Assembly: GCA_030837965.1 (NCBI GenBank)
Contig: JAUTXP010000017.1
Location: 1 to 35,811 of the forward strand
Origin: Acidimicrobiaceae bacterium
GTDB taxonomy: Bacteria > Actinomycetota > Acidimicrobiia > Acidimicrobiales > JAUTXP01
Length of the DNA: 35,811 bases
Direction of reading: 5' to 3'
Part shown: in pieces, positions 2,521-7,767 of the stretch
Layout of the letters: each line of letters opens with the position of its first letter
Position numbering within the stretch: position 1 is the stretch's first letter
Program-made: the position numbers and the translations under genes
The notes under the pieces: generated by a model
What the model saw: only the letters and a program-made list of their open reading frames with translations
What the model was told of the DNA's origin: nothing
Databases searched by the model: none

Positions 2521-2718
2521 CTAGAGCGGCGGACAGACCAGCACGTAGGCCGGGGGATTGGTGCTCGTCACCTCGACGCAAGGCACAGACGATGAACTCG
2601 TAGTCGACACCGTGGGCGGTGTGGGATCGGCGCCGCTGGGCGGTGCGCTGAGCCATAGGACAGGCACGGCCCCGATGGCGGTCAGAGCCAACGCGGCGGC
2701 GAGTGAGCGGTGTGTCAT
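2521..2718 (-). CDS. Small secreted protein with two cysteines
   Basis: A 65-residue protein with an obvious signal peptide: MTHR, a hydrophobic core LAAALALTAIGAVPVLWL, then a likely cleavage around APPSGA. The mature part is Pro/Thr/Ser-rich and has two Cys (SVPCVEV and VLVCPPL). The ATG is preceded by GGGGGAGG with a 4-nt gap to the start, the best Shine-Dalgarno in this region, which supports translation. It is divergent from the sigma-like gene, and the two ATG codons overlap in one CATG if the longest sigma start is used. No family is recognised. It was selected on signal peptide and ribosome binding site rather than homology. Confidence 0.6.
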   Translation of the reverse strand: MTHRSLAAALALTAIGAVPVLWLSAPPSGADPTPPTVSTTSSSSVPCVEVTSTNPPAYVLVCPPL

Positions 2719-3859
2719 GGGTCCTCCCCCAGAGGATGAACGTGGTCCTCTGGAGGGAAGACGCCAGACGCACCTCTTCGTTGGCGCGAACGACGAATAC
2801 GACTTGGCCGTGGAACTGCCCGAGCTCGTGGTCGCCATCCGACGGAGCTTGCGGAGCCGGGGCGTCGACGCCGATGGGGCCGACGACATCGCCCAAGAGG
2901 TCGCGGTGCGAGCGTTGGCGAGAAAGGCCCCGTACGCCTCGCGCCGCCACCTGCACGGCTGGTGCTTCCTCACCGCCAGCCGCTTGGTCACCGACCGCTG
3001 GCGACAGCAACAGCGGCATGCGCACCTCGGCGAACTCGGCGAACTCGGCGAACTGGCGGACGTGCCCGACGCGGCCGCGGGAACCGGCGTCGACACCCGG
3101 GTGCAGCACCGCGCCGCCGTGCGCGAACTGCTCGCCGCCGTCCCCCAGCTCACCGAGAGCCAGCAACGGGCCTTCGGACGCATCCTGCGCTCGGACGTCG
3201 GGGCCATGCAGGAGTTCCTTGCCGCCGTCGAGGAGCACGCTTCGGGCCCGCAGATGCAGACGGTGTTGGACGTCCTCTCGGCCGCGGACACGGACTTCGA
3301 GGTCGGCGCCGGATCGACCGAGCGCTGGGGTCGTCACGACGTTCGTCAACGGCTCCGGCGCATGGTGCAGAACTTCCCCGCCGTCGTGCCCGGACTGCGA
3401 CTGGCACTGCGGTCGTTGGAGCAGCGCCTCACGGCCAAGACACGGTGGCTGGCGCCGATGGCCATGTTGGGGGCGACCACCGCAGCCGTCTCGCTCCTGG
3501 TCGGCATCGAGCCGCGGGTCGAGAGCCAGGTCGTCCGGGATACGGCAATGTCCATGCCGGTGGCCTTCTCCCGGCCCGCGGCGCCCGATGCCGCGGGACG
3601 GCGGTCCGAGACGATCGGGGCGCCGCAGCCTGCAACCGCAAGCGATCCGCACGCCGGCGGGCCGAGCTCAGGCCGACTTTCGAACGACGCAGGCAGGACC
3701 ACCCTTCTGCGCTTTCCTGAGCCGGGCGGCGGCACCGGCTCCATCAACGTGGTGCCCAACGCCCCGACGCGCCCGCTCGTGTGCGCCGTCGTCAGTGGCT
3801 ACGGCGGCTGCGTTGAGAAATCAGCCCTGACCGTTCCAGCGCCGCCCCCGAGCGACTGA
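2717..3859 (+). CDS. Sigma-70 region 2-like protein with C-terminal membrane anchor
   Basis: A 380-residue protein from the ATG. Residues 34-100 resemble sigma-70 region 2: LPELVVAIRRSLRSRG, DDIAQEVAVRAL, and a basic helix SRLVTDRWRQQQR. A Gly-Glu-Leu triplet repeat follows (9-bp DNA repeats at about 3027-3055). A clear region 4 helix-turn-helix is not visible; residues 135-225 are helical and of unknown fold. One membrane segment (WLAPMAMLGATTAAVSLLVG, 244-263) is followed by a 115-residue, probably extracytoplasmic, Pro/Gly-rich tail with two Cys (356, 365). ECF sigma factors are normally soluble, so a fused membrane segment suggests a built-in anti-sigma or tethering arrangement. Later in-frame starts (TTG 2804, GTG 2810) keep all of region 2 and would avoid overlap with the divergent gene. 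Confidence 0.7.
   Translation: MGPPPEDERGPLEGRRQTHLFVGANDEYDLAVELPELVVAIRRSLRSRGVDADGADDIAQEVAVRALARKAPYASRRHLHGWCFLTASRLVTDRWRQQQRHAHLGELGELGELADVPDAAAGTGVDTRVQHRAAVRELLAAVPQLTESQQRAFGRILRSDVGAMQEFLAAVEEHASGPQMQTVLDVLSAADTDFEVGAGSTERWGRHDVRQRLRRMVQNFPAVVPGLRLALRSLEQRLTAKTRWLAPMAMLGATTAAVSLLVGIEPRVESQVVRDTAMSMPVAFSRPAAPDAAGRRSETIGAPQPATASDPHAGGPSSGRLSNDAGRTTLLRFPEPGGGTGSINVVPNAPTRPLVCAVVSGYGGCVEKSALTVPAPPPSD
2726..2756 (-). promoter_or_regulatory. Hairpin overlapping the ribosome binding site of the secreted-protein gene
   Basis: CCAGAGGA (2729-2736) and TCCTCTGG (2746-2753) form an 8-bp inverted repeat with a 9-nt loop. In the minus-strand RNA the stem can extend by a G-U and two G-C pairs, into the GGGGGAGG Shine-Dalgarno of the gene starting at 2718. 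It could mask the ribosome binding site or, as DNA, be an operator between the two divergent genes. Inference only. Confidence 0.4.
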
Positions 3860-3965: not shown

Positions 3966-4361
3966 ATGACGAATGGTACCGAGAGCACCGGCGCGTCCGG
4001 GGAGGTGACCAAGGTTGTCCGCACCACACGCGTCGAGCTCGTCGACCGGAACGGCACGACCCGCGCCGTGCTCGGCCCGCTCGACAGCCCCGACCCGATG
4101 GCCGCCGTCTTCGGCCTGGCCCTCCTCGACGCCGAAGGGCGCCAGCGGGTGTGGTTGACCCTTGACGGGACCGGGCCGTCCCTCGTCTTCGACTTGGCCG
4201 GCAACAACATCGTCGCCATCGGCGTCAACGACCCCACGGCCGACGCCCTCCATGTCGGCGGCTACCTCCATGTCACCGATCTCGACGGCACACCCGTCCT
4301 TGGGTGGCAGGTCGACGAGGACGGCGCCGTGCTGGGGCGGATGGGCGGCCCGACCCGGTAG
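3966..4361 (+). CDS. Conserved-looking small beta-rich protein, unknown function
   Basis: A 131-residue protein with no signal peptide or membrane segment. The ATG is preceded by AGGAGG at a normal distance. It is built of repeating strand-turn units around D-x-x-G: VELVDRNGTTRAVLG (34-48), LALLDAEGRQRVWL (61-74), VFDLAGNNIVAIGV (84-97), HVTDLDGTPVLGWQVDEDG. Such repeats suggest a small repeated beta-sheet fold, but no named function is recognised. It follows the sigma-like gene on the same strand with a strong hairpin between them, and is followed by a candidate terminator at 4372-4413, so it may be its own unit. Confidence 0.75.
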   Translation: MTNGTESTGASGEVTKVVRTTRVELVDRNGTTRAVLGPLDSPDPMAAVFGLALLDAEGRQRVWLTLDGTGPSLVFDLAGNNIVAIGVNDPTADALHVGGYLHVTDLDGTPVLGWQVDEDGAVLGRMGGPTR

Positions 4362-4464: not shown

Positions 4465-7400
4465 GTGGCGGACAACACAGCGGCGGCGGGCCGCAGACAG
4501 AACCCGCGGCGTAGCTCCCTGGGATGGGTCATGGTCATGTCGGCCGTCACGGCCGTGGTGGTCGGCTCCATCCTCGTCTTCCAGACCATCCCGGCGTTCT
4601 CGCGGGTGGCCTCCCAGGAGCAGCAGGAGACGTCGGTGGCCAACCGCTTGGCCGCGCTGGTGGCCGGACAGGCCGACGACGAGCGGGGCTACCTGTTGAG
4701 CGGGGACACCATGTTCCTCGACCTCTTCGACGCCAAAGGGCGCGAGATCCAAGCCAATGGCGGGCGGCTCGCCGAAACCGCCACCCGCGAGGAGCAGGCC
4801 GCGCTGACCGCGTCGGTCAAGCCCTACATGGAGTTCCTCGCCGCCCACGCCCAGGTGGTCAAGCTCTACGCCGCCGGCCGGGTCGCCGAGGCCACGAGCC
4901 TCGCACTCGGTGCCGACAGGACGGCCCGGCTCATCGCCGAGTCGCAGTTGAACGCGTACCTGAAGGTGTTGCGAGCCCAGTCCGATCGCGAGTTGAACGA
5001 TGTCAGGGCCAAGGCCGCAGCGCTCACGGGTGCGCTGCTACTGCTTGGATTCGCCCCCGCCCTGGCCGCCTTGCAGCTTCGCCGCAGGGACCGGCAGTTG
5101 GCCGTGGCCGAGGCCACCAACGCGGACCGGGCCCGGCTGGCCGAGGCTCAGCGCATCGCCCACCTCGGAAGCTGGGAGCACACGTTCGCCACCGGCACGA
5201 CGGTGTGGTCCGACGAGACCTACCGCATCTTCGGCTTCGAGCCCGGGCAGGTGCCCGCATCGCTGGAGCTCGTCATCTCGCTCACCCATCCCGACGACAT
5301 GGTCGAGGTGGCGGGCACCTTCCAGGCCGTCCAGGCCAGGCAGGAGCCCTTCGCCTTCACCAACCGAATCGTTCGACCGGACGGGTCGGTGCGGTGGGTG
5401 GCCACCCGAGGCGAGTTCCACATGGCCGCCGGTCGGCCAACCGCGGTGGTGGGAACCGTGCTCGACGTCACCGAGCGCGAGGAGGCCATGTCCGTGGTCA
5501 AGGCCAGCGAGCACCGCCTGGCCGAGCAGGAGCGCGACATGCGCCACCGCTCCCTGCACGACGCCCTCACCGGGCTGGCCAACCGCACCCAGTTGCTCGC
5601 CCGCGTCGAGGACGTCCTCCGACTGGGCGACGACCAGACGCCGCTGGCCGTGTTGCTGTTCGACCTCGACTCGTTCAAGGACGTGAACGACGCATGGGGC
5701 CACGGCGTCGGCGACCGAGTGCTGGTGGCCGCGGGCGAACGTCTGAAGGGTTCGTTGGCCCACGCCGACGGCAACCGCGTCGGCGCCGCGCCGCGGGTGC
5801 CTGACACCGTGGCCCGACTGGGCGGCGACGAGTTCGCCGTGCTCCTGCACGGGGCGTCGGCGTCGGCCGCCGCTTCCTTGGCCGAGCGGATGCTCGAGGA
5901 TTTGCGCCAGCCGCTCACCGTCTCAGGCCGGGTCGTCTCGGTGGACGCCAGCGTGGGCGTGGCCGTCGCCCTCACGGGCGCAGACGGCGAGGAGCTGCTG
6001 CGCAACGCCGACGTGGCCATGTACCGGGCCAAGGCCGAGGGCAAGGGGCGTGTGGCGGGCTTCGCGCCTGAGATGTATGCGGCACGCGTGGAGCGACTGG
6101 CCTTGGAGGCCGACTTGCGGACCGCCATCGAGGACGGCGCCTTCGTCCTCTACTACCAGCCCATCGTGGACTCGGGGACGGGCGAGATCCACACCGTCGA
6201 GGCGCTGATCCGATGGCCGCATCCAGACGGCCGGTTCATCCCGCCCGACGACTTCATCCCGTTGGCCGAGGAGACCGACCTCATCGTCCCGTTGGGCAAG
6301 TGGGTCCTCGAGGAGGCCTGCCACACACTGGCCCGGCTCGCGCCCGACGGGAAGACCAAGGTCGCCGTCAACCTCTCGGCCCGCCAACTGGACCTGCCCG
6401 ATCTGGTCGACACGGTGAAGGACGTCCTCGAACGGTGCGGGCTGCCCCCGGACCGGCTGGTGCTGGAAGTCACCGAGGGTGCGATCATGCGCAAGGCCGA
6501 GACCGCCTTCGAAAACCTCAGCAGCCTGCGCAGGCTGGGTGTCCCCGTGGCCATTGACGACTTCGGCATGGGCTACTCGTCGCTCGGCCGGCTGCGCCAG
6601 CTTCCGGTGAGCGAGTTGAAGATCGACAAGTCCTTCATCGACGAGGTGGACACCGATGGGACGAGAGCGCCGGTGGTGGCTGCGGTCGTCGCCCTGTCCA
6701 AGGGGCTCGGGCTGGCGACTGTGGCCGAGGGAGTGGAGACGGCTCCGCAGGTGCACGCGTTGCGGCGCCTCGGCTGCACTCGGCTCCAGGGCTACTTGTT
6801 CAGCAGGCCGCTCCCGGCGGACCAGATCGGCGAGCTGCTGGCGTTCCCAGCCCCGTACGCCAGCCTGCTGCCGCCCTTGAGCGACGACGTGCTCGACGCC
6901 ACCGCGGCCGAGGTCATGGAAGCAGTGGCAGCCGCCATCGCGGGCGGCGGCACGTTGGAGGACGCGGCCCGCCCGCTGTTGGCCGAGGTGGTCCGTCTCA
7001 CCGGATTGGAGTCGGCCTACCTGGCCGATATCCGAAACGAGGACGGCGCCACCGTGCACGCAGTGCGCTTCGCCGAGAATGCAGGCGGGCTGGTGATGCC
7101 GGAGGGCAATGAGCTGGCGTGGGACGACACGCTGTGCAAACGGCTGATCGATTCGGGCTGGCGCTTCACGGCCGACGCAGAGGCCGACTTCGCCGACTAC
7201 CACCGCTTGAACTCGCTCGGCCTGCGGTCCTACGCGGCGGTGCCCATCGCCCGGCGGGACGGCACCTTGTGCGCCACGCTCTGCGCGGCCAGCCGCGAGC
7301 CCCAGCAGGCCGACGCCGACACCGCGGCCGTGCTCGAGGTGTTCGCCCGCGTGCTGGGCGACGTGCTGGCCCGCACGCAGCCGGACGCCGACTCGGGCCC

Positions 7401-7767
7401 GACCGTGCGGGTCGTGATCGCCGATGACAGCGACGTGGTCCGACGCATCCTGCGCGACGCGCTGGCCGTGGACAACCGCTTCGAGGTGGTGGCCGAGGTG
7501 GCCGACGGCGGCGCCGTGGTGGAGTCGTGCACGCACCACCAGCCCGACCTGTTGCTGCTCGACTTGGACATGCCCGTCCTCAACGGGCTGGCCGCCCTCG
7601 ACAGGGTGCGCCAGTGTTCGCCCGAGACCACCATCGTGATCGTCACCGGCGGCACCGACGCCCGCATGCTGGCCGAGGCCAAGGCCCGCGGCGCCACCGC
7701 CGCCGTCGACAAGCGCGACGTGGTCGACCTCCCCGCCCTCTTGGCCCGGGTCCTCCTGCCGACCTGA
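4465..7767 (+). CDS. Membrane GGDEF-EAL cyclic di-GMP enzyme with PAS, GAF and receiver domains
   Basis: An 1100-residue signalling protein. Order: cytoplasmic tail; TM1 (about 20-42); a CHASE3-like helical sensor (45-180); TM2 (187-204); PAS (228-340); GGDEF (363-535); EAL (548-790); GAF-like (815-970); response-regulator receiver (980-1100). The cyclase motif RLGGDEF is intact (GGDEF 453-457), with an inhibitory-site motif RVPD at 444-447. The phosphodiesterase side keeps EAL (579-581), NLSARQL, DDFGMGYSSL, KIDKSFI, AEGVET and QGYLFSRPLP. The receiver has DD (987-988), phospho-acceptor Asp1033 and Lys1083. Both activities are therefore plausible, and which one dominates cannot be told. A receiver at the C-terminus of a GGDEF-EAL protein is less usual than at the N-terminus. 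The GTG start has no Shine-Dalgarno, and CACAAT ends 8 nt before it, compatible with a leaderless message. Confidence 0.95.
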   Translation: MADNTAAAGRRQNPRRSSLGWVMVMSAVTAVVVGSILVFQTIPAFSRVASQEQQETSVANRLAALVAGQADDERGYLLSGDTMFLDLFDAKGREIQANGGRLAETATREEQAALTASVKPYMEFLAAHAQVVKLYAAGRVAEATSLALGADRTARLIAESQLNAYLKVLRAQSDRELNDVRAKAAALTGALLLLGFAPALAALQLRRRDRQLAVAEATNADRARLAEAQRIAHLGSWEHTFATGTTVWSDETYRIFGFEPGQVPASLELVISLTHPDDMVEVAGTFQAVQARQEPFAFTNRIVRPDGSVRWVATRGEFHMAAGRPTAVVGTVLDVTEREEAMSVVKASEHRLAEQERDMRHRSLHDALTGLANRTQLLARVEDVLRLGDDQTPLAVLLFDLDSFKDVNDAWGHGVGDRVLVAAGERLKGSLAHADGNRVGAAPRVPDTVARLGGDEFAVLLHGASASAAASLAERMLEDLRQPLTVSGRVVSVDASVGVAVALTGADGEELLRNADVAMYRAKAEGKGRVAGFAPEMYAARVERLALEADLRTAIEDGAFVLYYQPIVDSGTGEIHTVEALIRWPHPDGRFIPPDDFIPLAEETDLIVPLGKWVLEEACHTLARLAPDGKTKVAVNLSARQLDLPDLVDTVKDVLERCGLPPDRLVLEVTEGAIMRKAETAFENLSSLRRLGVPVAIDDFGMGYSSLGRLRQLPVSELKIDKSFIDEVDTDGTRAPVVAAVVALSKGLGLATVAEGVETAPQVHALRRLGCTRLQGYLFSRPLPADQIGELLAFPAPYASLLPPLSDDVLDATAAEVMEAVAAAIAGGGTLEDAARPLLAEVVRLTGLESAYLADIRNEDGATVHAVRFAENAGGLVMPEGNELAWDDTLCKRLIDSGWRFTADAEADFADYHRLNSLGLRSYAAVPIARRDGTLCATLCAASREPQQADADTAAVLEVFARVLGDVLARTQPDADSGPTVRVVIADDSDVVRRILRDALAVDNRFEVVAEVADGGAVVESCTHHQPDLLLLDLDMPVLNGLAALDRVRQCSPETTIVIVTGGTDARMLAEAKARGATAAVDKRDVVDLPALLARVLLPT

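Follow-up and report, generated by a model that had tools for sequence, protein, structure and literature searches.

A membrane-tethered sigma-like protein encoded divergently from a secreted-type two-cysteine mini-protein in Acidimicrobiales

The divergent gene pair and its distribution

The analyzed stretch of DNA (in the following, the window) comprises 35,811 nucleotides of an Acidimicrobiaceae bacterium and corresponds to contig C14 of a 3.55-Mb draft genome. At positions 2521–3859 it carries two divergent genes, one for a sigma-like protein with a predicted membrane anchor and one for a small protein of the secreted type. Together with the adjoining sequence, the following features were assigned:

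2440–2455: palindrome CCCCCCAAATGGGGGG, terminator-like, past the 3′ end of the small gene; also present at the corresponding position of the paralogous locus L011 (~1946–1961)
2521–2718, minus strand: gene of a secreted-type mini-protein with two Cys (65 aa), divergent from the sigma gene; homologous ORF at 14/14 family loci
2533–2580, minus strand: Cys pair of the mini-protein, C47-x14-C62, whose second Cys is preceded by V and followed by P
2716–2719: CATG, the overlapping ATG starts of both genes; same in L011
2717–3859, plus strand: gene of the tethered sigma-like protein (380 aa, ATG start, TGA stop)
2722–2730, minus strand: GGGGGAGGA, strong Shine-Dalgarno sequence for the mini-protein, located within the coding sequence of the sigma gene
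2804–3040, plus strand: sigma region 2, residues ~30–108 (Pfam/NCBIfam; AlphaFold2 pLDDT mostly >90)
3086–3376, plus strand: shortened or degenerate region 4, residues ~124–220 (profile alignment), containing an insertion of ~45 aa that is peculiar to the copy in the window
3452–3508, plus strand: predicted single transmembrane segment, residues 246–264 (hydropathy; Arg/Lys 5 vs 2, N-terminal side richer)
3509–3856, plus strand: predicted extracytoplasmic tail of 116 aa, rich in Pro, Ala, Ser and Thr, with a Cys pair at its end
3782–3811, plus strand: Cys pair of the tail, C356-x8-C365; C-x7..10-C in 12/12 intact members
3966–4361, plus strand: downstream gene of unknown function, homologous, at 47% identity, to the gene that follows the paralogous module

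The coordinates given for both ORFs in a preliminary description of this DNA were correct, and its suggestion that the possible ATG codons overlap in a single CATG was confirmed. The overlap recurs in the paralogous locus of the same genome and is not general among the family loci: across the 14 loci, the position of the mini-protein start, relative to the aligned start of the sigma gene, ranges from ~40 bp within that gene to ~85 bp upstream of it.

A single-sequence search yielded four loci. When 397 Acidimicrobiales genomes were searched with a profile, and again with a 12-member profile, the divergent pair was found at 12 intact loci in ten genomes and at two further loci cut by contig ends, one in one of these ten genomes (G013:C29) and one in an eleventh (G187:C121); in total, eight families are represented. 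Intact members scored 169–352 bits, while the next full-length sigma reached 134. For the first four loci, the peptide was known before the profile was built from them, whereas the later loci were retrieved with the sigma profile alone. A divergent mini-protein was present at all 14 family loci. For comparison, 94 sigma-like ORFs from outside the family were examined, of which many are membrane-anchored and several carry a loose pair of Cys close to the end; a single one of them had a mini-protein match, which was loose and 265 bp away (Fisher p 6e-15; since the family members are related and their loci are not independent events, this value measures retention and not independent gains). The preliminary description had proposed to look for the two genes together in other genomes, and in this respect, as in its expectation of a conserved small frame, it was borne out.

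Relatives with the module include BP_101, AC_35, RYN_50 and YB1_3, all metagenome-assembled Actinomycetota/Acidimicrobiales, and the assignment of the order to Acidimicrobiales is based on them. In the named genome collection, only four clear members were found, all metagenome-assembled, and the other matches had only region 2 in common with the family. Searches of the class and the phylum, based on the top five candidates per genome in a sample of genomes, gave matches outside the order that were without a divergent peptide; given this sampling, family members outside the order may exist.

The overlapping starts in the window and L011, and the frequency of spurious long frames in GC-rich genomes, are what one would expect if the small ORF were a chance antisense frame, i.e. 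a reading-frame artefact. This can practically be dismissed, as a homologous ORF is found at 14 loci and lies in most cases outside the coding sequence of the sigma gene, and as nearly all of these ORFs are preceded by a Shine-Dalgarno-like purine stretch. The chance background is also low, with secreted-looking small ORFs ending in C-x10..18-C[TPL] in three of 864 control stretches of 900 bp.

Architecture of the two proteins

In the window protein, the Pfam model Sigma70_r2 matched residues 41–100 with E=1.7e-4, just under the curated cut-off, and NCBIfam ECF models matched with E-values down to 3.9e-8. In a Pfam scan of the 12 intact members at E≤0.01, Sigma70_r2 was the sole domain; it was matched in ten of them, with 4.7e-10 as the best value. 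The family profile, searched against the PDB, matched solved ECF sigma factors down to 1.9e-11. AlphaFold2 predicted region 2 confidently both in the window protein and in its relative L049, and the L049 model agreed with region 2 of Mycobacterium tuberculosis SigE to 2.1 Å over 76 residues (Z 9.4). With the window model, Foldseek ranked ECF sigmas first with weak E-values (best 0.015) and gave nothing below E 0.001, because half of this model is of low confidence.

Region 4 deviates from that of other ECF sigmas. A profile alignment of the family with ordinary anchored ECF sigmas of the order (99.7% probability, E 2e-24) extends over region 2, the beginning of region 4 and the end of the recognition helix (RxRARxxL), with gaps falling where the helix preceding the recognition helix is expected. 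From these gaps together with the aligned ends it follows that region 4 is shortened and not absent. The ~45-aa insertion lies in region 4 of the window copy, and the paralogue is without it according to the alignments. Judged by sequence, the family does not have the complete region 4 expected of ECFs, and the protein may not be a normal sigma factor. It could even drive no transcription at all and act as a membrane-held, peptide-gated, sigma-derived binder of RNA polymerase or of a sigma regulator, as a PhyR-like decoy. The missing helix in the profile alignment and the failure of Pfam to match Sigma70_r4 in any of the 12 members would suit such a role, and sigma-like proteins that are not sigma factors, e.g. 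PhyR, are known (PMC8103513). We nevertheless regard it as improbable, since region 2 still shows the ECF pattern in general outline and gives high-confidence models on SigE/SigH from initiation complexes, and since region-2 proteins are able to work with a partner, as RsoA does with SigO (PMC8103513).

Following region 4, one hydrophobic segment was found in 12/12 intact members by hydropathy, with Arg/Lys enriched on its N-terminal side in ten members and equal on both sides in two. The predicted tail beyond it measures 102–118 aa in 11 members and 144 aa in one, has a combined Pro, Ala, Ser and Thr content of 36–50% (12 intact members), and ends in a conserved motif that mostly reads [LIV]-x-C-x7..10-C-[VILFA]. 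The AlphaFold2 model of L049 places two paired strands around this Cys pair at low confidence. A zinc-finger (anti-sigma-like) domain is absent from the 12 members (Pfam, E≤0.01), and their alignment contains no conserved Cys/His set between the sigma domain and the membrane segment. Also, no carbohydrate-binding module was matched by Pfam at the C-terminus, where the tail of ~110 aa ends in the Cys pair. The near-constant tail length and the conserved terminal Cys pair speak for the proposed sensor function.

The 14 homologous mini-protein ORFs have a signal-peptide-like N-terminus and end in C-x12..16-C, with V or I before the second Cys in 14/14 and P, T or L after it in 14/14. The Cys loop comprises 12, 14 or 16 residues in twelve ORFs and 13 in two, lengths which would fit a beta-hairpin, and the likely cleavage sites suggest a mature peptide of about 20–40 residues. 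Between tail and peptide, profile comparison detected no sequence homology (0.2% probability), and the idea that the tail hairpin and the peptide mimic each other was not supported. Likewise, distance matrices of the peptide and of sigma region 2 gave no indication of co-evolution (Mantel r 0.03, p 0.43). This missing signal, and the simplicity of secreted two-Cys peptides in general, could be taken to mean that the Cys pairs serve stability only and that the peptide is an exported tail stabilizer without signalling, or that it is an unrelated neighbour retained because the control regions overlap. We consider this very unlikely, given the likeness of the peptides at fixed positions around the second Cys and the presence of a peptide at every family locus.

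Most of what the preliminary description had read from the window agrees with these data. The sigma region 2-like domain has family matches in both Pfam and NCBIfam, the single membrane segment is supported by hydropathy at about residues 246–264, the predicted tail carries its two Cys at residues 356 and 365, and the minus-strand neighbour shows the signal-like N-terminus, two Cys and strong Shine-Dalgarno sequence of a short secreted protein. Its statement that there is no obvious region 4 holds for the Pfam search and has to be modified in view of the shortened region 4 in the profile alignment.

Start region, flanking genes and proposed mode of action

The genes flanking the module differ between genomes and include those for a lysyl-phosphatidylglycerol synthase, a YfhO-like protein, OsmC, OpuAC and an ABC transporter; therefore, the two genes are the unit that is retained. 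The exception is the genome of the window, whose two copies have flanking features in common. Here, the gene at 3966–4361 was considered as a third component and rejected: it lies beside both modules of this genome only, three further copies occur elsewhere without a module, and no relatives were found near other modules. The encoded family (L161–L165, five copies in the window's genome) contains repeated LVDxxGxxR-like units and has no Pfam match. No separate region 4 protein was recognized among the neighbours of several modules, and such a partner could lie elsewhere.

Some further observations concern the surroundings. A tRNA-Leu (CAA) at 2200–2286 of the window adjoins the module just past the palindrome. 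The paralogous module L011 lies between a gene for a large secreted protein (1–1542) and an RHS-like repeat gene (5036–6001), both named by eye. GGDEF/EAL (cyclic-di-GMP) proteins are encoded near three modules (the window, G186 and G219; positions 4465–7767 of the window, 2066–3718 of L065 and 479–1420 of L053), which may be chance. The sequence GTGATTAC is near-identical at the sigma start of L049 (1476), L051 (1883) and L052 (2110), and in L053 (~1626) it is out of frame, 29 bp before the sigma start; it may represent a regulatory site, or else point to a frameshift or to translation from a leaderless start.

A shared ECF-type promoter of the form AAC-N15..18-CGT was rejected, as it was present at three loci on the peptide side (1.4 expected) and at four on the sigma side (1.2 expected), there at inconsistent positions. 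An ECF-promoter-like CNAAC-N16-CGTC precedes the ATG of the peptide gene by 41 nt and is confined to the two copies in the window's genome. This element bears on the main rival explanation, in which the peptide is a sigma-activated product rather than a ligand. The mini-protein would then be the output, i.e. a secreted pheromone, a bacteriocin-like peptide or a cell-wall micro-protein, and the main target of a tethered sigma that senses something else with its own tail. Divergent, nearly overlapping starts suit a product that controls the other gene, and tail and peptide are not homologous, as this explanation would allow. The promoter-like element points in the same direction, but it is missing at the other loci and lies within the sigma coding sequence, so that it may reflect plain coding conservation. 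Moreover, a mere target need not remain adjacent over such divergence, nor be confined to one sigma family with this tail motif. On balance we judge this explanation to be unlikely.

We favour, with a confidence a little short of even, a two-gene sensor with one membrane pass, in which the secreted hairpin acts on the tail of the tethered sigma and sigma activity is thereby released or unmasked. The ECF-type sigma domain would be held at the membrane by the single helix, from which a linker of ~110 residues would extend into the cell wall and carry a small, disulfide-closed hairpin at its tip. The mini-protein would be exported, lose its signal peptide, fold as a second small disulfide hairpin and bind the tail, either directly or via a common surface partner. 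Since there is no tail–peptide similarity, no distance correlation and no common promoter, the arguments for direct binding are gene linkage and anatomy. Binding or its loss would alter the cytoplasmic sigma part, and the simplest route would be exposure of the stalk to regulated proteolysis, by which the sigma domain would be freed; this step is suggested by analogy to IutY, for which such a release was shown, and to ECF52, for which it was proposed. With a reduced region 4, the sigma would have to recognize promoters mainly by their −10 element or work together with a helper. Through the start region common to both genes (0 to ~80 bp), it could control its own gene as well as the peptide gene.

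The interpretation given in the preliminary description is therefore partly supported. As a description, 'membrane-tethered sigma-like protein divergent from a secreted two-Cys peptide' is right, while sigma action, binding of the peptide to the tail and an envelope-stress signal are proposals. ECF sigmas mostly depend on a separate anti-sigma factor linking the outside to the inside. The module appears to unite sensor, membrane anchor and transcription factor in one protein, accompanied by a secreted partner, and its recurrence in distantly related uncultured Actinobacteria suggests a way of sensing the surroundings that has so far not been described. Thereby, the gating of a sigma factor by an extracellular mini-protein and the working of a sigma with a shortened region 4 become accessible to tests, and the family is a source of candidate signalling peptides for uncultured Acidimicrobiales. 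Tentatively, and with some reserve, we suggest a peptide-gated class: one-pass tethered sigmas read by a dedicated secreted disulfide-hairpin mini-protein, with the genes of ligand and receptor sharing one start region and no separate anti-sigma recognized.

Comparison with known tethered sigma factors

Actinobacterial ECF sigmas with one or more membrane segments and a long extracytoplasmic extension have been described as ECF52 (SCO4117 of Streptomyces coelicolor), ECF48 and ECF53; the extension of ECF52 is proline-rich, and proteolytic release was proposed for all three groups (PMC5826349, PMC8999054). The family shares with them the membrane segment after the sigma domain in 12/12 intact members and, with ECF52, a proline-rich extracytoplasmic linker. 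In contrast to ECF48/52/53, it is without the zinc-finger anti-sigma-like domain and has a shortened region 4 as well as a divergent secreted two-Cys mini-protein; the carbohydrate-binding module of ECF52 is also missing.

In IutY of Pseudomonas putida (ECF243), a tethered sigma for which proteolytic release was shown (PMC8999054), one protein joins the sigma domain to a membrane-spanning regulatory part, as in the family. Whereas IutY, to which an anti-sigma part is fused, reacts to aerobactin, the family protein has a short tail with a Cys pair. RsoA of Bacillus subtilis, a region 2 protein without region 4, forms a working split sigma with SigO (PMC8103513). RsoA is a separate protein acting with SigO, while the family protein is membrane-anchored and has no recognized region 4 partner next door. 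Of the features of secreted-ligand and pheromone systems, a signal-like N-terminus and linkage of the two genes are present, and export, processing and receptor binding of the peptide would belong to the proposed mode of action.

Within the order, ordinary anchored ECF sigmas (e.g. L047, L057, L058 and L145) likewise combine an ECF sigma with a membrane segment and an extracytoplasmic part, but have a full region 4 and are without the terminal Cys motif and the divergent mini-protein of the family. Single proteins with an ECF sigma of normal region 4, a membrane segment and a long external part seem to be common in the order (L046, L047, L048, L057–L060, L154–L156). L045 (G013:C39), L125 and L145 are anchored ECF-type sigmas of 600+ aa with BNR/sortilin-like (DGGxTW) repeats named by eye, whose extracytoplasmic part ends in a Cys pair and beside which no mini-protein is encoded divergently. 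A shortened region 4 also seems to be present in L045 and L005 (G000:C27).

In the open literature, no tethered sigma with a secreted peptide partner was found. Membrane-tethered ECF sigmas as such are already known; what distinguishes the family is the secreted partner and the shortened region 4, and by its domain content it is set apart from ECF52.
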